NCBI GenBank assembly: GCA_903970425.1
Contig: CAJCIR010000072.1
Coordinates: 1 to 48,388 of the forward strand
Reading direction: 5' to 3'
Origin: Chlamydiota bacterium
Lineage (GTDB): Bacteria > Patescibacteriota > Saccharimonadia > Saccharimonadales > UBA4665
DNA length: 48,388 bases
Shown: piece after piece, positions 4,709 through 46,096 of the stretch
Layout: each line of letters opens with the position of its first letter
How positions within the stretch are numbered: the first letter of the stretch is position 1
Translations under genes and position numbers: made by a program
Notes under the pieces: model-generated
The model's input: only the letters and a program-made list of their open reading frames with translations
The model's database searches: none
Told to the model about the DNA's origin: nothing

Positions 4709-4812
4709 AACCATATTGTAAGGCCTAGCTTAAAAAGATAAATAGTTGGGCCAATCTTTAGTTAAATTCGCTAATCTGATTGACAAGAGATGGGCAATTA
4801 TGGAGAATAGTG

Positions 4813-5877
4813 ATGCAGGCAAGCAAAAACAAAAAACATCACAATTTAATGATTAGAACCTACGACAACAGACAGGCTCCTCTTAAAACTCCTCAAACAG
4901 GCTCTGTTCATAATGTACTAATTTTCCTAGTAGTACTGGCTTTTGGCCTGTTTTTTGGTTTTAGATATTTACAAGACCATGTTTCAGCGGCCACTTCCAA
5001 GATCACCTCTGGTGTATCCGGCTATTGTCTCGATGATCATAAGGATATCGTAACCAATAGTGCTGTAGTAGATGATTGGGGATGTAATGGTACGAGTGCT
5101 CAAGACTGGGTAGCTACCGACACCACAATTACCCACGACGACAAATATTGTTTAAGCGTTCAGGATAACTCTACTGACAAGGAAGCCAATGTAACGCTTG
5201 ATAGTTGCAATGGGGCTCCGGGACAGGTCTGGCTGCGTGATCAGACTGGGTACCAAAATCCTAATAGTGGGCTATGTCTTTCAACCTCACCGTCTCAAAC
5301 CGACGGCCATCTGTTTTTAGACTCCTGTTCAAACCTCAGCAGCCAACAGGAAACATGGTCACCCGTAAGCCTAAGCGATAAGAGCGGTAAAGACAGCATT
5401 ACGTGTAGTGGTAGCGAAGATGAAAAGGTTGCTTGTTATGCTGTGAAGGAATGGACATCCTGGCAGTCGGGAACAATAAGTCATGAAAACCTACTTAATT
5501 CCTATACTGACGGAGCACCTTATGAAGAATGGTGCGCCGATTTTGTCAGCTATGTCTACAAGGAAGCCGGATATCCGTTTACTCAGGGTGAAACCAACGG
5601 CTGGGATGAAAACATCGCGGGAAACATACAAAACCAGGGAGACTTTACTATGCATAGTGCATCCTCAGGATATGTTCCACATGCTGGCGACGTTGCTTTT
5701 TTCGACTATCCAGGTGGACACGTTGAAATTGTCGTTAGTGGAGGCAAGACGCCAACTTTCGTTTACGGTGATTCTGCGACTATAGATCCATCTACTGGGA
5801 ATGGTGATATGGAAGCCAACACTATTACGAGCGAACCCAATTTGGGCCAATTGACCTATTATCTATCGCCAAATTAG
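4813..5877 (+). CDS. Membrane-anchored ricin-type lectin/CHAP amidase
   Basis: About 354 residues. A cytoplasmic lead of ~35 residues is followed by a membrane helix (LIFLVVLAFGLFFGFRYL), a ricin-B lectin-like trefoil segment (about 65-190, with three Q-x-W type repeats: QDW, QVW, QETW) and a CHAP domain. The CHAP nucleophile is Cys241 (WCADFVSYV) and the general base is His303 (GGHVEIV). CHAP domains cleave peptidoglycan amide bonds, and the lectin part should bind glycans. A TTG at 4780 would extend the frame, but GGAG 7 nt before the ATG at 4813 favours this start. It ends 14 bp before the convergent typA stop. Confidence 0.9.
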   Translation: MQASKNKKHHNLMIRTYDNRQAPLKTPQTGSVHNVLIFLVVLAFGLFFGFRYLQDHVSAATSKITSGVSGYCLDDHKDIVTNSAVVDDWGCNGTSAQDWVATDTTITHDDKYCLSVQDNSTDKEANVTLDSCNGAPGQVWLRDQTGYQNPNSGLCLSTSPSQTDGHLFLDSCSNLSSQQETWSPVSLSDKSGKDSITCSGSEDEKVACYAVKEWTSWQSGTISHENLLNSYTDGAPYEEWCADFVSYVYKEAGYPFTQGETNGWDENIAGNIQNQGDFTMHSASSGYVPHAGDVAFFDYPGGHVEIVVSGGKTPTFVYGDSATIDPSTGNGDMEANTITSEPNLGQLTYYLSPN

Positions 5878-26500: not shown

Positions 26501-26905
26501 TTATCGTGCGAACTTTTTGGTATATACAATGTGGGCAAATGTACCAGTAATGGTAACGGCTGCAAATAATCCTATAGCGCTACCAGGTCCAGTGTTCGCT
26601 AATTGAGTAGGTTGTACTGATGCGGCAAGAGTAGCAGCAGGAGCTGGAGTTGTTACTGGAGCAGGTGTTGTGCTGGCAGGTACTACTGGTGTAGCTGTAG
26701 GTGTAGAAGTAACTACCGGGGCAGGAGTAGTTACAGGCGGGGTAGTCTTACTAGGACAAGGTTTAGTCGTTGAAGTCGAAACTGGTTTAGTTGTAGTAGG
26801 CTTAGTTACGTGTTTGATGTTATCACAGGCGTATGCAGCGCTACTTAGAATCATTGGTGCCAATAATATGGCGATTCCGATAAAAAGGGCGTTAACTCTT
26901 TTCAT
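26501..26905 (-). CDS. Secreted Pro/Thr-rich surface protein with LANTGPG C-terminal anchor
   Basis: 134 residues in three parts: a signal peptide (about 1-26, ending SSAAYACD), a low-complexity stalk of Pro, Thr, Val and Ala (about 35-100), and a C-terminal LANTGPG followed by a hydrophobic helix (IGLFAAVTITGTFAHIVY) and basic KKFAR. That order is the layout of a sortase-type sorting signal. The protein at 36906 ends the same way. Likely a surface spacer or adhesin stalk. GGGAGAG precedes the ATG, and a consensus promoter lies upstream. Confidence 0.8.
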   Translation of the reverse strand: MKRVNALFIGIAILLAPMILSSAAYACDNIKHVTKPTTTKPVSTSTTKPCPSKTTPPVTTPAPVVTSTPTATPVVPASTTPAPVTTPAPAATLAASVQPTQLANTGPGSAIGLFAAVTITGTFAHIVYTKKFAR

Positions 26906-36905: not shown

Positions 36906-37268
36906 GTGAAGAAAGATAGAAAACGGTCTCATATGTTAACTGAATTATTTGCAGCTATCTTGATTATTCTTTTGATAGTCATTGTTATTGGTGGTATTAG
37001 CTACGGAATTCATTACTTGACTAAAATTAATTCCAGTCACAAAGTTTCATCCAACACTTCTTCAAAAGCTAGTGATAATACCACAACTAAGTTGCACCAT
37101 CCTTCGACTAATAAGAGTATAAGTCTGACCGAGCCTAGCGATAACTCGAATAATCAGTTAATAAATACTGGCCCAGGCTATACCGAGTTTGTCGTATTTG
37201 CCGCAGCCTCATTTAGCGGTATTTTATTGCACTATATTTGGCGAATGAAAAAAAGAGTAGATACTTAA
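36906..37268 (+). CDS. Surface protein with LINTGPG C-terminal anchor
   Basis: 120 residues from a GTG start with GAGG 8-9 nt upstream. Basic N-terminus, one helix (ILIILLIVIVIGGISYGI), a Ser/Thr/Asn/Lys-rich stalk of about 55 residues, then LINTGPG, a hydrophobic helix (FVVFAAASFSGILLHYIW) and basic MKKRVDT. The tail matches the protein at 26501 (NTGPG, then FAA, G, and H-Y/I). The retained N-terminal helix suggests both ends may be membrane-embedded unless cleaved. Function unknown. Confidence 0.75.
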   Translation: MKKDRKRSHMLTELFAAILIILLIVIVIGGISYGIHYLTKINSSHKVSSNTSSKASDNTTTKLHHPSTNKSISLTEPSDNSNNQLINTGPGYTEFVVFAAASFSGILLHYIWRMKKRVDT

Positions 37269-38329: not shown

Positions 38330-39295
38330 ATGTCTCAGCAATCTTCCAAAAATAAGTACAAACCTATTATTACAATTTTTATTGTAGTGGCCGTTGCCGT
38401 CCTAGGTGTTAGGCTACTCACCTTAGGTCATGCCCAAACCCCATATGTTTCCAGTTATGCTGCTAATGGTCAGCGCACCGGCTCAGCAAGCCTCGTAGCT
38501 GGCGGTAGTAATGCTAATAATCAGGCTGTCCAATTTGGCAGTGCCTCAACAACTCCAACTGGGCCTCAGGGGGGCTGTACAAACAACGGAGTAGTAGCTC
38601 CATGTATTGGTAACGATACCACCGGGGCAGGTGGCTGGGGTACTCCTACGTTCGATGACGAGTTCACTAAAGACAGTTCGCTCAATACTTCTAAATGGTC
38701 TCCAACTGTCTATTTCGGAGGCAATGTTCAGAACTACACGACCATGTATGCCTCTAACGTCAGTGTTGCTGACGGCTACCTTAACCTTGAGGCACATGGC
38801 GCTGAGGATCAATCCGGAAGTTTTCTCGATACCGACCCAGACGATGGGGTAGCTGGTCACACAGGATATCAATTTACCTATGGCTATATGGAAGCCCGAA
38901 TTTATTTCCCAGCCTCGGGCAATGAAATTGCTAATTGGCCTTCTTTTTGGGCGGTCGGTCAGGTTTGGCCGAATGATGGAGAGTTAGACGTTGTGGAAGG
39001 TCTTAATGGCGCGGCTTGTTACCACTTTCACTGGGGTACTTCTTCTAATCCTCAAGCTCAAGGAGGCTGTACAAGCGGCAACTATGCGGGGGGTTGGCAC
39101 ACCTTTGGAGCTGATTGGCAGCCAGGCAGCGTAACTTGGTACTATGACGGGGTAGACGTAGGGTCCGTGACTAGCAACATTACCTCACAGCCGCTGTTTC
39201 TTATTCTAGAGAATTCAACAGGTTCATACGGCCTTCTTCCTGTTACGACACCTGCTGACGTACAAGTATCATATGTTCGAGTTTGGCAGAATTAG
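38330..39295 (+). CDS. Secreted GH16-family glycoside hydrolase
   Basis: About 321 residues. One N-terminal helix (ITIFIVVAVAVLGVRLL), then a 40-residue module AQTPYVSSYAANGQRTGSAS to AVQFG shared with the proteins at 41262 and 43331, a Thr/Gly linker, and a GH16 beta-jellyroll: FDDEF, YMEARIYFP, WPSFWAVG, catalytic ELDVVE (E218, D220, E223) and YVRVWQ at the end. GH16 enzymes cut beta-1,3 or beta-1,3/1,4 glucans and marine galactans; the fold resembles laminarinase types. It probably attacks host or environmental polysaccharide outside the cell. Confidence 0.92.
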   Translation: MSQQSSKNKYKPIITIFIVVAVAVLGVRLLTLGHAQTPYVSSYAANGQRTGSASLVAGGSNANNQAVQFGSASTTPTGPQGGCTNNGVVAPCIGNDTTGAGGWGTPTFDDEFTKDSSLNTSKWSPTVYFGGNVQNYTTMYASNVSVADGYLNLEAHGAEDQSGSFLDTDPDDGVAGHTGYQFTYGYMEARIYFPASGNEIANWPSFWAVGQVWPNDGELDVVEGLNGAACYHFHWGTSSNPQAQGGCTSGNYAGGWHTFGADWQPGSVTWYYDGVDVGSVTSNITSQPLFLILENSTGSYGLLPVTTPADVQVSYVRVWQN

Positions 39296-39405
39296 TAGAA
39301 CAAATATGTCGTTGAATGGGTTCCGAGCGGGTACTAACAGTTTTCAAGACTGATTAATTACTATACAATGTATAGCTTAGACAATTAACAGACGGAGGCT
39401 ATATC

Positions 39406-39969
39406 ATGGCTAAAAAAATTGGTATTATACTTGGCTCAACACGACCTGGTCGGATCTCGCCAGCAATAGCTGATTGGGTTGCGGCAGGTATTGCCAAGCA
39501 TCCTGAGCTCTCAGTTGAAATGCTTGATCTCAAGCAGATCAATTTACCATTCTTTGATGAGCCAACCATTCCCTCGGTTGCGGCAGGAGTTTCAAAGGCG
39601 GCAGTTGCCTGGAGAGAAAAAGTGTTGAGTCTCGACGCGTTCATTATTTTAACTGCTGAGTACAACGCTGGTTATACAGCACCGCTTAAGAATGCACTCG
39701 ATTATTTGAAGACCGAATGGGCAAACCGTCCAATCTTCATCGTGTCCTATGGCTTTGGTGGTGGTGCATCCGCCGCACATCAGTTAAGTGAAGTCTTGAC
39801 TCGCATTGGTACTGTGCAGATTGAACCAAACATCGCTATCCTCATCGGCGATAAACTAAACGCCAATGGCGGTATCGATGACCCACACACGAGTCTTGCA
39901 ATACATAATGATGAACTTGATATCGCGCTTAACGCTATTGAGGCTTGGACTCCTCCAGAAGAGAAATAA
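39406..39969 (+). CDS. NADPH-dependent FMN reductase-like flavoprotein
   Basis: 187 residues of flavodoxin-like fold. GIILGSTRPGRISPAIADWV is the FMN-phosphate loop, DLKQINLPFFDEPT follows, and ILTAEYNAGYTAPLKNALDYL is the family signature. The group covers ChrR/SsuE-type azo-, quinone- and FMN reductases. ACGGAGG is well placed before the ATG. It stands alone between the two GH16 genes. Confidence 0.92.
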   Translation: MAKKIGIILGSTRPGRISPAIADWVAAGIAKHPELSVEMLDLKQINLPFFDEPTIPSVAAGVSKAAVAWREKVLSLDAFIILTAEYNAGYTAPLKNALDYLKTEWANRPIFIVSYGFGGGASAAHQLSEVLTRIGTVQIEPNIAILIGDKLNANGGIDDPHTSLAIHNDELDIALNAIEAWTPPEEK

Positions 39970-40000
39970 TTCTGTTGACTGGAATTGGAGTCGCATCACC

Positions 40001-40243
40001 TCAAATCTCAGTTTTATATGGTAGAGCGTTTCTCAATCTTTGAGCATTTCGCTTAATACGTTGTCTAATTATTAGATAATATCTATCTGATTGTTTTTGT
40101 AGCTTAATGTTTTGCTCGCGTCCATCTGCATCATCTCGATCTATCGGATCTTGGGGCTCATTATAGTCACCGATATATTGTATAGAATTTACTCCTAAGT
40201 GTTTTTGCTGTTTGTTCTTTTTAGACATAATTGAATGAGACAT
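40001..40243 (-). CDS. Small basic hypothetical protein
   Basis: 80 residues from ATG 40243, with AAAGGTG about 10 nt upstream; a longer frame to 40279 exists. Polar and charged, no membrane helix: Lys/Gln-rich start, an acidic DPIDRDDADGRE segment, and an Arg-rich C-terminal helix (IIRQRIKRNAQRLRNAL) that could bind nucleic acid. No family recognised. Confidence 0.5.
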   Translation of the reverse strand: MSHSIMSKKNKQQKHLGVNSIQYIGDYNEPQDPIDRDDADGREQNIKLQKQSDRYYLIIRQRIKRNAQRLRNALPYKTEI

Positions 40244-40337
40244 ATCTGTGTCACCTTTCGTTATTTCGTTATTGAACAAAGCTCAGCAGTTTTCCGTAAC
40301 ACCCTCCTTTTCAATAATGTGCGTAATAATGTTTAGC

Positions 40338-40400
40338 CCGTAATTGATAGCATAATGCTACTGTCTTCAGTAGTATGTGCGCATAGTCACGGGATTAATC
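40338..40400. other. Potential folded element between divergent genes
   Basis: CTACTG (40358-40363) and CAGTAG (40368-40373) form a hairpin with a TCTT loop, extendable to about 9 bp with a wobble. An outer CCCGT/ACGGG pair encloses it. No U-tract follows, so it is not a simple terminator. It lies upstream of the Crp-like gene. Confidence 0.35.
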
Positions 40401-40425
40401 TGCAAGAGAGAATACAATTAGATTC

Positions 40426-41099
40426 ATGCCAATAGGTTTATCAATAAATCCGACCACCAAGACTAGGGACAAAAGTATCATCTCTCACTTTAGTGATGGA
40501 TTGACTATGCGATTCGAGAAAGACCAACTATTATTGATGGCTATGAAGAGCCAGATGGAGTTTATTTAATTAAGCAGGGTTTCGTTAAAGCGTATTCTAT
40601 ATCACAGAACGGGAGCGGTAAACTTCTATTAATACATGAAGCAGGCGAATTTGTACCTTTGCCATGGGCCCTGAATGACTCTAACTTTACCGGCCTATCA
40701 TACGCTGCAATGTCCGACGTTTTAGTGATAAAAGCTTCCAAAGATAGGCTACGTGACGCAATGGGGAACATTCAGTGGCTGTCTCAAGAAGTTCTCAGCC
40801 AAACTGTGAATATAATTGCACTTTACACTCAGAGAATCCAAACTCTGGAATTTCGATCGTCTAGAGAAAGAATTATTTCGGAGTTAATATATCTTGCGAA
40901 GAGATTTGGGAAGCATCAAGGAACTGACATATTTATTGACGCTCCGATAACACATCAAGACATAGCAGATTCTATTAATATGAATCGGGAAACAGCAAGT
41001 AGGGCATTGGAGTTACTATTTCAAGAAGGATTAGTCAGTCAAAAGAATCATTACTTTATAGTTAGAGACGTCGGCGAATTACAGGAAGCTCTGGGTTAA
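40426..41099 (+). pseudogene. Crp/Fnr-family regulator interrupted by a frameshift
   Basis: ATG 40426 lies 7 nt after TACAAT (40413-40418) and reads to MRFEKDQLL, then in this frame ends at a TAA after 46 codons. The next frame continues the same domain: IDGYEEPDGVYLIKQGFVKA, then KLLLIHEAGEFVPLPWAL (cNMP-binding-like beta-roll) and a C-terminal helix-turn-helix (THQDIADSINMNRETASRALELL) to 41099. The switch falls in CTATTATTG near 40528-40536 and needs a 1-2 bp indel. The TTG at 40659 would give only the dimerisation helix and HTH. Possibly a pseudogene or a sequence error. Confidence 0.85.
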
Positions 41100-41261
41100 G
41101 GACGTCTGGAATATTTTAGAGTTGAACTCAACTTAGTTCAGACTAGCAGTTATCGGACCGAACGTAGAACTATCTAGTCAAGCTCTTTGATTGACATATG
41201 CTATGGTGTAAACATAAGCTGTAGACAGTCTAATAACTTCGCTAGCAAAGATATATAGAAA

Positions 41262-42305
41262 ATGAGAAGTAAATTCGATTTACAAAAAGCTGCGGGAGTA
41301 TTCGCCATACTAGTCGTAGTTATATTAGGGGTGCACTTATTGAGAGCTAGCCGTGCCCAATCACCTTATGCTGCAGTTGGGGCATCCTCCGGTACTTTAA
41401 CTTCGCCTGCTAATCTTCAACCTGATAATAACGCCTCTGGCGGCAAGTCTGTCCAATTTGGCCAGTATCTAAGTTATAGTATTGTCTACGACTCCAACCG
41501 AACCGGTAATTATGAAATATATAAAATGGACCCGGGTGGTAAAGTTACGCAGCTGACATCCGACACAACTTACGATTCGTGGTGGGCAAAGCCTTCACCA
41601 AATGGAAGTCAGATATTATTTTACCGAACGCCTGCTGGAGTCCACGACACCAATTACGCCAAGACTAGTTTATGGATGATGAATAGTGATGGTAGTAATC
41701 TGAGGGAGATATTACCAGTTGGTGCAAATGGTTGGACTCTTCAAGGTCACGGCGAATGGTCCCCGGATGGTACCGAACTGGTAATGTTCGGTAATACCAA
41801 CATTTATATTACTGATCTCAACGGAAACATTATTAGCACGGTTGCGACGTATGGTCTGGATCCAACATTTACCCCAGACGGAAAACAGATAGTCTATATA
41901 AGCTGTAGCGACCGACCGACCTGCCCGACTAGTGATTATAGAGTCTATAGAGTCAATGTTGATGGCAGTGACCCTACTCAATTAGAGAATCTACCCTACC
42001 GAGCCGATGACCCCTTTACCTCTCCCGACGGCAATACCATAGTTTGGGAAGTTAATATTAGTGGCTTAGTCTGGGACATTGCCAGCATGAATACCGATGG
42101 ATCTAATGCAAGTATCCTATTCGGCGACAACAATATAAACACTAACCCCACCTGGTCGCCTAATAATGTCATCTATTTCTTCAAAACTGATCCAGGTAAA
42201 TATGACAATTATGGGTTGTGGCTAATGAACCGTGATGGAAGTGGGCTACAATGGATTTCGCAGGGACAGACGGGCAGCAATGAATATGTTAGCGTTGTGC
42301 CATAA
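41262..42305 (+). CDS. Secreted TolB-like beta-propeller protein
   Basis: 347 residues: one N-terminal helix (VFAILVVVILGVHLL), then the shared module (AQSPYAAVGASSGTLTSPAN to SVQFG), then a propeller of PD40/WD40-like blades: IYKMDPGGKVTQLTS, WSPDGTELVMFG, FTPDGKQIVYISC, SPDGNTIVWEV, WSPNNVIYFF and LMNRDGSGLQWIS. Such propellers bind proteins or glycans; no enzymatic residues are evident. It lies between two GH16 genes with the same N-terminal module and may act with them. Confidence 0.88.
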   Translation: MRSKFDLQKAAGVFAILVVVILGVHLLRASRAQSPYAAVGASSGTLTSPANLQPDNNASGGKSVQFGQYLSYSIVYDSNRTGNYEIYKMDPGGKVTQLTSDTTYDSWWAKPSPNGSQILFYRTPAGVHDTNYAKTSLWMMNSDGSNLREILPVGANGWTLQGHGEWSPDGTELVMFGNTNIYITDLNGNIISTVATYGLDPTFTPDGKQIVYISCSDRPTCPTSDYRVYRVNVDGSDPTQLENLPYRADDPFTSPDGNTIVWEVNISGLVWDIASMNTDGSNASILFGDNNINTNPTWSPNNVIYFFKTDPGKYDNYGLWLMNRDGSGLQWISQGQTGSNEYVSVVP

Positions 42306-42370
42306 GCCAGGCATTGTAGATCGATTTCAGAAGTTCTGATAGATATACGATTTATTAAGCAGGAGCTACA

Positions 42371-42421
42371 GCAATTGAGGGTAGTACGTTCCAGCTGCAG
42401 CCCAGCCTCCAAACCAATTGC
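42371..42421. repeat. Inverted-repeat-bounded intergenic element
   Basis: GCAATTG (42371-42377) and CAATTGC (42415-42421) bound a GC-richer patch with a CAGCTG palindrome and GAGG/CCTC complement. It lies between the convergent propeller and NmrA-like genes and may be a transcript-end structure, though no T-run follows on either strand. Confidence 0.4.
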
Positions 42422-42427
42422 TAGCGG

Positions 42428-43051
42428 CTAAGGCTTTCCAATAATGGGAGCTTGTTTTATGAAACTACGTCGTTCGAGTACTTGTAGGACTGCCTGAGCG
42501 ACTTCTTTTCTACTAACGTATAGTTTTGTTGGCCCGTGTTCGAGTAACTCAAACGGTTTAGCTGAAACGTCCTGTAATTTTAATACTCGTATGACTGTCC
42601 AATCTAAATCACTATTCTTGAGTACTTCTACATGGTTTTTGCCATCTTTGACCCTAGCCGGATCAATAATACTGATACTTAAATTCAGAATTCTGTCTAA
42701 TACTGTAATTATGTCGCCAGGGAATCGAACCCCAGTACCCGTTAGGCTTATTAACCGTTTAATTCCCAGTACGTTCATAACACCTGCAACTTTTTGAATT
42801 GCGATAGTTTGTACATTTGGCTCTGAGCCCTTAACGTGTCCAATAAAGCTAGCCACTGCCTCTTGCCTTAACATTAAATTCTTTAGTTGAGACTCATTAG
42901 TAGCGTCACATTCAACTATCACTAGGCTAGGGTGTGGTTGGAGGTGACTTTTGCCACGAACTCCAGCTCTAATTGAGTGACCTGCAGCTAGTGCTGCCTC
43001 AACAAAGGCTTGTCCCGATCGTCCACCGGCTGCGATAACGGCTATTTTCAC
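42428..43051 (-). CDS. NAD(P)-binding Rossmann (NmrA-like) protein
   Basis: 207 residues. KIAVIAAGGRSGQAFVEAALAAGH is the dinucleotide loop, and RAGVRGKSHL supplies basic residues that favour NADP. LISLTGTGVRFPG and KNHVEVLKNSDLDWTVIR complete the atypical-SDR pattern. Many members are redox sensors or reductases; the substrate is unknown. It starts with GTG, with AGGA 7-8 nt upstream. Confidence 0.88.
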   Translation of the reverse strand: MKIAVIAAGGRSGQAFVEAALAAGHSIRAGVRGKSHLQPHPSLVIVECDATNESQLKNLMLRQEAVASFIGHVKGSEPNVQTIAIQKVAGVMNVLGIKRLISLTGTGVRFPGDIITVLDRILNLSISIIDPARVKDGKNHVEVLKNSDLDWTVIRVLKLQDVSAKPFELLEHGPTKLYVSRKEVAQAVLQVLERRSFIKQAPIIGKP

Positions 43052-43095
43052 TTAATTTCCTGAATTAATTATGATCATTGCTCTTATTAGAATGA

Positions 43096-43115
43096 GCGTA
43101 TTAACCATGATACGC
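43096..43115. repeat. Palindrome upstream of the NmrA-like gene
   Basis: Perfect arms GCGTAT (43096-43101) and ATACGC (43110-43115) around 8 nt, about 45-65 bp upstream of the NmrA-like start at 43051, with a second inverted pair GCTC/GAGC overlapping it on the left. Operator-like; no T-run follows. The rest of 43052-43330 holds no gene that I can support. Confidence 0.4.
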
Positions 43116-43277
43116 AAATGATTAAGCTGTTGTGCTATGTCTAACCGGCAGGTTTCTAACCACTTAATACGAATATTATTTTTGTTCTTCTGTGTATTTG
43201 TTGCTATATTTATTACCATAATTAGTATTTAATTAATAACACAGTGTTCTATAAATTAAGCACTACGAGTAGAGGGA

Positions 43278-43319
43278 GTTCTATTAGGATAATAAACTGA
43301 ACCAGTTTGTTCTAATAGG
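43278..43319. repeat. Tandem GTTCTAWTAGG direct repeats
   Basis: GTTCTATTAGG (43278-43288) and GTTCTAATAGG (43309-43319) differ at one base and are 31 bp apart, about three helical turns. The palindrome AAACTG-AAC-CAGTTT lies between them. They end 11 bp before the GH16 start at 43331 and look like tandem regulator sites. Confidence 0.55.
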
Positions 43320-43330
43320 CGTTTGTTAAC

Positions 43331-44332
43331 ATGCCTAAGCCTGCTTTAAAGCATCTACTCCAAAAAGAAATGTCACGCAAAGACTTTCTTCGTATTAGTG
43401 CTCTAGCTACTATCTCTCTTATCGGCATAGGAGGATTACTAACCGAACTTCTATCACACGCAGCTTCTCCCTATGCAGCTGGAGAAGCAGAAAATGGAAA
43501 ATTAACGGGGCCAGCGAGCGTAACCAATGACACCACAGCTTCTGGTGGTAAGGCCGTAGAGTTTGGAAAGAACAGTACTGGTGGCGGTGGAACCGGAGGA
43601 AACCCGGTACCGACAGTTCCCTCTGGCACGACTGTGCCGAGCAAGGTCATACTCAACAGTACGTGGGAGAGCCCTGGAAACAACACAACCACACTTGAGC
43701 CATATTGGGTTGATACTTGGGGCCAGAACGATGGCTCTCAGAACCCCAATGCTCAGGTTGTAGATTCGGCGTACACCACGATTACCTCAGATGGTGTGCA
43801 GATGATTTGTCCCACTACTTCGCCATCATCAGCTGGTTTGATCTGCACCCAGTCTTCTGGGCAGCAAACTCCTTTCACCTTCACCCCAAGCGCTAGCGCA
43901 CCTGTATTTGTTGAGTTCAAGGCCTACATTCCCTGCCAGTCGGACGGCACAATCTATAACTGGCCCGCTCTTTGGGTTGTCACGCCAGATACGTGGAATG
44001 CCGAGATCGACATATTCGAGGGACTTGGTGGTTCAGCCGCAGCGCACTACCACTTTAATAATGGAGCGAATCAGGCTGGCCTTAGCTATCACATCAATCC
44101 TAACGCCGACAATGTGTTTGGACTACTGTTTGCTAACACCGGGACAGCTGAATTCTTCGTCAACGGGGAGTCAATCGGATCACTGTCACCACCCGTACTT
44201 TCGTCGGGTACGCTATCTCAGACTAATGGCTTCCAACTTGTTGCCGAGAACTCCAACGGTTCTACCGCAACAGGTCCAACTGACACCTCAGCAGTGTTAA
44301 TACTACGTTATGCCCGAGTCTGGCAAGATTAA
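43331..44332 (+). CDS. Secreted GH16-family glycoside hydrolase (second copy)
   Basis: 333 residues. The N-terminus has MSRKDFLRISALATISLIGI, a Tat-like motif with R-K in place of R-R, before a hydrophobic segment. The shared module (ASPYAAGEAENGKLTGPASV to AVEFG), a Gly/Pro linker and a GH16-type jellyroll follow: NWPALWVV, catalytic EIDIFE (E225, D227, E230), HYHFN, and YARVWQD at the end. It differs enough from the enzyme at 38330 to suggest another glycan. An internal ATG at 43370 is an alternative start. Confidence 0.85.
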   Translation: MPKPALKHLLQKEMSRKDFLRISALATISLIGIGGLLTELLSHAASPYAAGEAENGKLTGPASVTNDTTASGGKAVEFGKNSTGGGGTGGNPVPTVPSGTTVPSKVILNSTWESPGNNTTTLEPYWVDTWGQNDGSQNPNAQVVDSAYTTITSDGVQMICPTTSPSSAGLICTQSSGQQTPFTFTPSASAPVFVEFKAYIPCQSDGTIYNWPALWVVTPDTWNAEIDIFEGLGGSAAAHYHFNNGANQAGLSYHINPNADNVFGLLFANTGTAEFFVNGESIGSLSPPVLSSGTLSQTNGFQLVAENSNGSTATGPTDTSAVLILRYARVWQD

Positions 44333-45117: not shown

Positions 45118-45390
45118 ATGTATGAAATTCTCTATAGTGACGAGGTAGTTAAAGAAGATATACCTAAACTAGGTAAGCCATGGAAGAGTAAGATTGAAAA
45201 AGCTATTGAATCAAAACTCATGACTCGACCCGAGGTATATGGGAAACCCCTAAGACGATCTTTAAAAAATTACCAGAAACTACGGGTTGGTGATTACCGG
45301 GTCATATTTAGAATTGAAGAACGAACAGTTAAAATCTTCGTTATAAAACATAGGTCAGTCGTATATTCTGTAGCGTCAAAAAGACTGTAG
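45118..45390 (+). CDS. RelE/ParE-family toxin
   Basis: 90 residues, typical for the family: YEILYSDEVVKEDIPKL at the start, IEKAIESKLMTRPEVYGKPLRRSLKNYQKLRVGDYRVIF in the core, and KIFVIKHRSVVYS at the end. The conserved RxGDYRV(I/V)F motif and the basic/aromatic end fit an mRNA interferase (RelE) more than gyrase-directed ParE, but this is not certain. Second gene of the pair. Confidence 0.92.
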   Translation: MYEILYSDEVVKEDIPKLGKPWKSKIEKAIESKLMTRPEVYGKPLRRSLKNYQKLRVGDYRVIFRIEERTVKIFVIKHRSVVYSVASKRL

Positions 45391-45478: not shown

Positions 45479-46096
45479 ATGCCAACAAAAGATATACAGT
45501 CTTCGCCAGCTTCTGTAGAGATATTCTCTGAGTATAAGCATTCAAAAAAAATATGGCGTCTACCATTAATTATGGTAATCGTCATTGTGGCTCTCTACGT
45601 CATAACAGCCTACGTCGTTACTCCCGTTGAAGTCCGCGGAATCTCTATGCAACCCACACTTCACACTGGCAACATTGTATTGGTATGGGAATGGCCTCAG
45701 ACCTGGGCTAGAATCACTAATAGTCAATATATTCCTAAGCGAGGCAGCATTGTGGTACTGCAGAAAACACCGGTTTCTGGAGAAGAGCTAATTAAACGGG
45801 TTATTGGTCTACCTGGGGATAACGTGTCAATTGGTAGCGGTAAAGTAACTGTTTCTAATAATCAAAACCCTTCTGGTTTTGATCCTGACGTGGCTCCTTA
45901 TGGGAAGAGCCTGGTGCCTATTTTCGGTAGCTATAGTACCGCAGTTCCCCCGGGTCAAATTTTCGTGCTCGGAGACAACCGCAGTCTAGGCGCCTCCATT
46001 GATTCACGCTCCAGCATCGGCAGTATAGAATCAACAGATATAATTGGACAGGCTATTATTAGGGTATTCCCTTTTGATCAAATCAAACTCTTCTAG
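45479..46096 (+). CDS. lepB: Signal peptidase I
   Basis: 205 residues. One N-terminal helix (LIMVIVIVALYVITAYVV), then the catalytic Ser56 in RGISMQPTL and Lys106 in LIKRVIGLPGD, and the family box GDNRSLGASIDSRSSIG. It removes Sec signal peptides outside the membrane, consistent with the many secreted proteins nearby. TAAAAT lies 8 nt before the ATG, with no Shine-Dalgarno sequence. Its last bases overlap the convergent gene by 4 bp. Confidence 0.96.
   Translation: MPTKDIQSSPASVEIFSEYKHSKKIWRLPLIMVIVIVALYVITAYVVTPVEVRGISMQPTLHTGNIVLVWEWPQTWARITNSQYIPKRGSIVVLQKTPVSGEELIKRVIGLPGDNVSIGSGKVTVSNNQNPSGFDPDVAPYGKSLVPIFGSYSTAVPPGQIFVLGDNRSLGASIDSRSSIGSIESTDIIGQAIIRVFPFDQIKLF

Follow-up and report, generated by a model that had tools for sequence, protein, structure and literature searches.

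A split CBM35 module as a probable docking system for secreted enzymes of Saccharibacteria

Why would three secreted proteins that differ in their outer domains start with one and the same short segment? This question is raised by a 48,388-nucleotide stretch of a Saccharibacteria genome (contig CAJCIR010000072.1; hereafter the window), where two glycoside hydrolases of family 16 (GH16; genes at 38330 and 43331) and a beta-propeller protein (41262) share such a segment behind a hydrophobic helix. An earlier note on this DNA, which had correctly located the three proteins, took the segment for the opening strands of a carbohydrate-binding module (CBM) of the CBM6/35 type, cut off after a Phe-Gly pair, and guessed at an attachment module rather than a sugar binder. 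That guess points the right way: The segment, which we refer to as the "tag," is best explained, on profile matches and a predicted fold, as the N-terminal third of a CBM35 beta-sandwich, comprising strand 1 and the strand 2-3 hairpin. What the note missed lies outside the window, where the same genomes encode the complementary, N-terminally truncated CBM35, hereafter the "catcher." We consider it likely that enzymes dock by their tag onto a scaffold protein, with its truncated CBM35 as the socket, in a natural split-domain system that would work like dockerin and cohesin.

The tag was found genome-wide. A three-row profile recovered 10 copies in the 803-kb Saccharibacteria genome (E 3e-21 to 2.5e-8); the seven beyond the window trio (E 5e-20 to 2.5e-8) each follow directly after a signal helix and front, among others, cellulase-like proteins, a beta-helix-like protein, and a third GH16-like protein. 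In related genomes, the number of tags reaches 19. With 10 copies in the genome, and with unrelated genes for an FMN reductase, a Crp-type regulator, and an NmrA-like protein between the three copies that lie within 6 kb in the window, the earlier view of the trio as one polysaccharide locus was too narrow, and the three genes do not form one operon. The segment is present in all three proteins, but the string ASGGK by which it had been described occurs in only two, the 38330 protein reading SNANNQAVQFG. As for the nearest named loci, a narrower tag set matched seven in named genomes, six of them labelled Candidatus Saccharibacteria, and no relative was found on viral contigs.

The tag is ~35 residues long and sits, with a sole exception, at the mature N-terminus. 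An alignment of 71 tags from this genome and its relatives has Ala at position -1 in all 71, Ser, Thr, Ala, or Gly at position -3 in 70, and His or Arg at position -2 in 55. This is the pattern of a signal peptidase I site, and hence the tag appears to open the mature protein. The helix in front of it, read earlier as a membrane helix, is indeed there but is more probably a signal that is cleaved off than a lasting anchor, since it ends in a signal-peptidase-I-like site in each of the three window proteins (Table 1); a second hydrophobic or membrane helix was found in none of the 63 complete tagged proteins. Three tag copies are preceded by Tat-like signals, and both genomes involved encode TatC (E 6e-44 in this genome). 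The exception is a C-terminal copy in genome G086 (L076, open reading frame ending near 545, + strand), where the protein stops right after the conserved Phe; the module thus seems portable to the other protein end.

As both Sec-like and Tat-like signals precede tags, a signal element of the Sec or the Tat route alone was ruled out. A feature generic to all GH16s was rejected as well, given the untagged exported GH16s in the order, even in tagged genomes, and so was one generic to all exported proteins, given that sampled housekeeping envelope proteins of the genome lack the tag. This selectivity for degradative enzymes and lectins, together with the place of the tag directly after the signal peptide, would suit a secretion pilot, a folding aid, or a sorting signal for some unknown export or wall factor, with the catcher uninvolved. 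We regard such a role as quite improbable: The indifference to signal type and the export of untagged GH16s speak against it, and the co-occurrence, linkage, and fusions of tag and catcher described below would be left unexplained.

As had been seen for the trio, the tag is joined to unrelated outer domains. The 74 downstream regions of extracellular tagged proteins fall into 45 unrelated BLAST clusters and 42 Pfam families, which include GH5, 12, 16, 39, 43, 99, and 114, alginate lyase, beta-helix, and phosphoesterase domains as well as M23 and M28 peptidases, propellers, and ricin-B and LamG lectins. The tag itself has the consensus A-T-P-x-x-S-x-E-A-E-x-G-T-L-x-x-x-A-x(4)-D-x-x-A-S-G-G-x-A-V-x-F-G. 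It follows the N-terminal CBM35 pattern EAE...G..........ASGG..V, with the two Glu residues present in 52 and 55 of the 71 tags, A31 and S32 in 63 each, and G34 in 59. Among 82 tag copies, 18 have one inner Cys, each with a second Cys 1 to 6 residues after the tag (18 of 18), and seven have two inner Cys; none has an unpaired one (Fisher 6e-14, relatedness ignored). The commonest pairings, 17-37 and 23-31, have equal sums, as a single antiparallel hairpin demands. AlphaFold2 predicted a hairpin both in the window tagged GH16 and in the isolated tag of another genome, with strands at ~18-22 and ~30-34 and a pLDDT (predicted local distance difference test) of 80-91 across most of the tag; in the GH16, a low-confidence linker comes next. 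A disordered linker, which the earlier note had named as one outcome that would speak against its reading, was ruled out by this predicted hairpin and the paired cysteines, and the segment is instead conserved and probably folded.

Could the stub nevertheless be a functionless relic, left by an N-terminal cassette of signal and CBM stub that spread by gene shuffling? Tags are more alike within a genome than between genomes (identity 0.45 vs 0.34), even on differing domains, as cassette spread would give. Yet the conservation of the Gly, Ala, Ser, and Phe positions over 45 unrelated contexts, the strict pairing of the cysteines, and the co-inheritance with a complementary half make this very improbable.

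The descent of the tag was traced by profile comparison. Tags alone are recognized by no CBM family and by no Pfam profile at all. Against the Protein Data Bank (PDB), the top four matches of the tag profile were CBM35 N-termini (7byx, 7byv, 7bys, and 2wz8; E 0.03-0.04), with residues 19-38 matched on 2wz8, and a Foldseek search with the hairpin ranked 2wz8 first, without significance (E 5.3). The profile matches CBM35 starts only, in line with the opening strands proposed earlier. It covers just the first ~33 positions of a ~120-residue beta-sandwich, after which unrelated domains follow; a whole CBM was thus ruled out for the tags. Outside the taxonomic class of this genome, the only matches seen lay inside longer CBM-like domains. 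Nor is the segment confined to full CBM domains: Within the order, intact CBM-type domains were found only in G363, G087, and G167, and the truncated form greatly predominates in Saccharibacteria.

Because a CBM35 stub alone cannot complete a sandwich, we searched tagged and untagged genomes with CBM_35 and CBM_6. The recurrent result was a secreted family, the catcher, which these Pfam profiles match weakly and only from profile position ~34-48 on: The domain corresponds to CBM35 from position ~38 to the end and lacks positions 1-37. A signal peptide immediately precedes it in nearly all cases, and no tag was matched upstream of it in the same domain. Its start reads AAC-x-A-P-x-T-x-Y-G-T-V-T-S-T-V-x-V-P-S-x-G-T-Y-R-I-W. 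The same search also gave the intact CBM35s of G363, one partial match (G643), and weak, apparently unrelated matches that were excluded (L169, L171, L177, L180, and L183-L185). Catcher domains occur, usually one per protein, mostly on immunoglobulin (Ig)-like proteins that often bear dockerins, with Big_7 in 22, Dockerin_1 in 15, and fn3 in 12 of 27 catcher proteins. Dockerin-like C-terminal repeats were seen on the catchers L186, L188, L190, L193, L196, L199, L203, L204, L205, L207, L209, and L212. In this genome, the catcher protein (L256) begins at 3920 of contig C8 and extends to the end of that contig, in the order signal, catcher, malectin, Ig, and fn3.

Tag and catcher are complementary in one fold. 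In two intact CBM35s of G363, their profiles match next to each other, at 497-527 and 533-633 and at 634-666 and 669-759, and they therefore correspond to the two parts of one domain. On known structures, the catcher profile matches residues 52-133 of 2wz8, beyond the tag match on the same chain, and 38-125 of the 127 residues of 2vzp. Relative to CBM35 and CBM6, the first ~33 positions thus correspond to the tag and the remainder to the catcher, whereas neither half is a whole module.

The two halves also occur together. Across 393 genomes of the order, counting the tag at E <= 0.01 and the catcher at E <= 1e-5, we found the tag in 55 and the catcher in 42 genomes: 42 had both, 13 had a tag without a catcher, none had a catcher without a tag, and 338 had neither (Fisher 2e-45, shared ancestry ignored). 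The tag-only genomes drop to five (G087, G113, G134, G167, and G250) at a tag threshold of E <= 1e-5; in G087 and G167, the two whose sequences were read, the segment runs on into further sandwich-like sequence. Among the 46 genomes with a GH16, 17 had both halves, one the tag only, and none the catcher only; 28 had neither, and the association is therefore not a mere by-product of having exoenzymes. As the p-values are not corrected for shared ancestry, contrasts within genera are the better guide. Eight genera (g2, g5, g9, g18, g25, g36, g38, and g75) contain genomes with both halves and genomes with neither; in one of these genera, both halves are present in G024, G183, and G200 and absent from G048, a single-contig genome.

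Gene order points in the same direction. Where a genome has just one tag and the positions of both halves are known, the catcher lies at most ~3.1 kb away or in the same reading frame in eight of nine (G041, whose contig is only 3.3 kb, G093, G095, G101, G106, G107, G279, and G366; unlinked in G038). Four fusion proteins hold both halves. Those of G101, G110, and G170 are single reading frames that run signal-tag-enzyme-catcher-Ig/fn3, the order to be expected had an enzyme been inserted into a CBM35 loop, and the split may have originated by such an insertion followed by gene fission. The fourth, in G107 (L244, reading frame from 163, + strand), runs signal-catcher-two membrane helices-tag-GH16 and looks like a polyprotein from which the catcher would stay anchored and the tagged enzyme be released.

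The joint occurrence might also arise if tag and catcher both came from CBM35 and acted independently, the catcher as a shortened module for binding sugar or wall and the tag as a surface-retention element for another partner, with one exoenzyme regulon bringing them together. CBM-like modules frequently adjoin enzymes, the invariant Trp residues of the catcher could serve sugar binding, and tag and catcher co-vary weakly, but this account sits poorly with two pieces that are complementary to within a few residues, with the 28 GH16-bearing genomes that have neither half, and with a catcher that never occurs without the tag. We therefore hold it to be unlikely.

Several observations weigh against docking of the tag into the catcher. 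The co-variation of the two (mirror-tree, Mantel r 0.26, p 0.017) is weak and within family not significant, the co-occurrence p-values carry no correction for shared ancestry, and the PDB matches of each half are weak singly (E 0.003-0.04). The catcher gene of this genome is incomplete and runs off its contig, and where tag, enzyme, and catcher are fused in that order, pairing of the halves could take place inside one chain. Lastly, the EAE motif of CBM6/35 is expected to help hold structural calcium, and it is retained in only two of the 10 tags of this genome (among the window trio, in tag 3 only) and lost in the other eight as well as in all seven tags of G020.

Docking, which we still favor, would proceed as follows. 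After export via Sec or Tat and cleavage by signal peptidase, the enzyme would start with a free tag that has already folded into its hairpin. The later CBM35 strands would be presented as the N-terminal domain of a separate secreted catcher protein, in which Ig-like or fn3 repeats usually come next, often along with a dockerin. The tag would enter the open edge of the catcher and complete the sandwich, and as a result, many different enzymes and lectins would be held on one or a few scaffold proteins. Physical binding, retention at the surface, and sugar binding by the restored domain are what we infer here, and the restored CBM35 may bind sugar only after an enzyme has docked.

Known systems offer partial parallels. 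In donor-strand complementation of chaperone-usher pili and in the engineered SpyTag/SpyCatcher pair, a peptide of one protein completes the incomplete beta-sandwich of another, as proposed here; however, about three CBM35 strands would be donated in our case, the sequences carry no sign of a covalent bond, and the parts are unrelated in sequence to pilins or CnaB domains. Sorting signals such as PEP-CTERM and LPXTG likewise place one short signature on many unrelated exported proteins of a genome. Unlike these C-terminal motifs with their anchors, the tag opens the mature protein and is followed by no anchor helix, and instead of a sortase-like enzyme it probably has a truncated sandwich domain as its partner. 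The cohesin-dockerin pair of the cellulosome resembles the present system in having a small module on many unrelated secreted enzymes per genome, a receptor on few larger multidomain secreted proteins, and a one-to-many stoichiometry. Here, in contrast, a CBM35 hairpin that opens the mature protein takes the place of the paired EF-hand-like repeats, a truncated CBM35, usually one per protein, takes that of the cohesin, and dockerins are found on the catcher proteins (15 of 27), while Dockerin_1 is not among the 25 commonest of the 42 Pfam families in the tagged set. For the Saccharibacterium T. rhizospherense, a "simple, two-subunit cellulosome" is mentioned in one sentence, and such modules are not described (PMC6031116); our searches of open-licence papers gave no description of tag or catcher.

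The window features are collected in Table 1. The 43331 product has no match in Pfam, aligns with tagged GH16 paralogues, and has a predicted model resembling GH16 structures; on this alignment and model, we assign it to GH16. It shares the ExDxxE catalytic motif with the 38330 protein. In the 41262 protein, no linker separates tag and propeller. The genome has two signal peptidase I genes, one in the window, 1.1 kb downstream of a tagged gene, and one, assigned by sequence, on contig C62 (L156, 604-1288, - strand); the former is a plausible candidate for the enzyme that processes tagged proteins. NTGPG occurs near the C-terminal end of two small exported proteins, which are possible sortase substrates; in the one at 36906, a hydrophobic stretch and a basic tail come after the motif. 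A secreted, untagged protein with a ricin-type lectin and a CHAP domain is possibly a wall-attack enzyme of an episymbiont.

Table 1. Positions of tagged genes, their parts, and other features in the window (a slash marks the predicted signal cleavage).
Feature	Position	Strand	Basis
Secreted, untagged protein, ricin-type lectin and CHAP (cell-wall amidase-like) domain	4780..5877	+	
Small exported protein, LANTGPG	26503..26905	-	
Small exported protein, LINTGPG	36906..37268	+	
Alternative TTG start for the 38330 reading frame	38327	+	
Tagged GH16 glycoside hydrolase, ELDVVE motif intact	38330..39295	+	PF00722, E 6e-9
Signal peptide, 38330 protein, ends GHA/Q	38330..38434	+	sequence and family-wide -3/-1 pattern
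Tag 1, QTPYVSSYAANGQRTGSASLVAGGSNANNQAVQFG	38435..38539	+	three-row profile
Tagged PD40/TolB-like beta-propeller protein	41262..42305	+	PF07676, E 6.5e-14
Signal peptide, 41262 protein, ends SRA/Q	41262..41357	+	sequence and family-wide -3/-1 pattern
Tag 2, QSPYAAVGASSGTLTSPANLQPDNNASGGKSVQFG	41358..41462	+	three-row profile
Tagged GH16-type glycoside hydrolase, EIDIFE motif intact	43331..44332	+	paralogue alignment and fold match
Tat-like signal peptide (SRKDFLR), ends SHA/A	43331..43462	+	sequence; TatC encoded in genome
Tag 3, ASPYAAGEAENGKLTGPASVTNDTTASGGKAVEFG	43463..43567	+	three-row profile; beta-hairpin, pLDDT 72-89
ParE-type toxin gene	45118..45390	+	PF05016, E 6e-7
Signal peptidase I	45479..46096	+	PF10502, E 6e-31

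On balance, we lean toward a split-CBM35 docking system that is unrelated to cohesin-dockerin and that gathers many degradative enzymes on few surface or matrix scaffolds, possibly with a second tier via the scaffold dockerin. If true, this would offer a natural tag/catcher pair usable in protein engineering, and it would constitute an enzyme-assembly system of the candidate phyla radiation for which we found no earlier description, its recognition code being simple and one-to-many. Dozens of uncharacterised Saccharibacteria proteins would gain a function, secreted enzymes could be found by their tag, and it would become clear how ultra-small cells that secrete few proteins hold their enzymes near.

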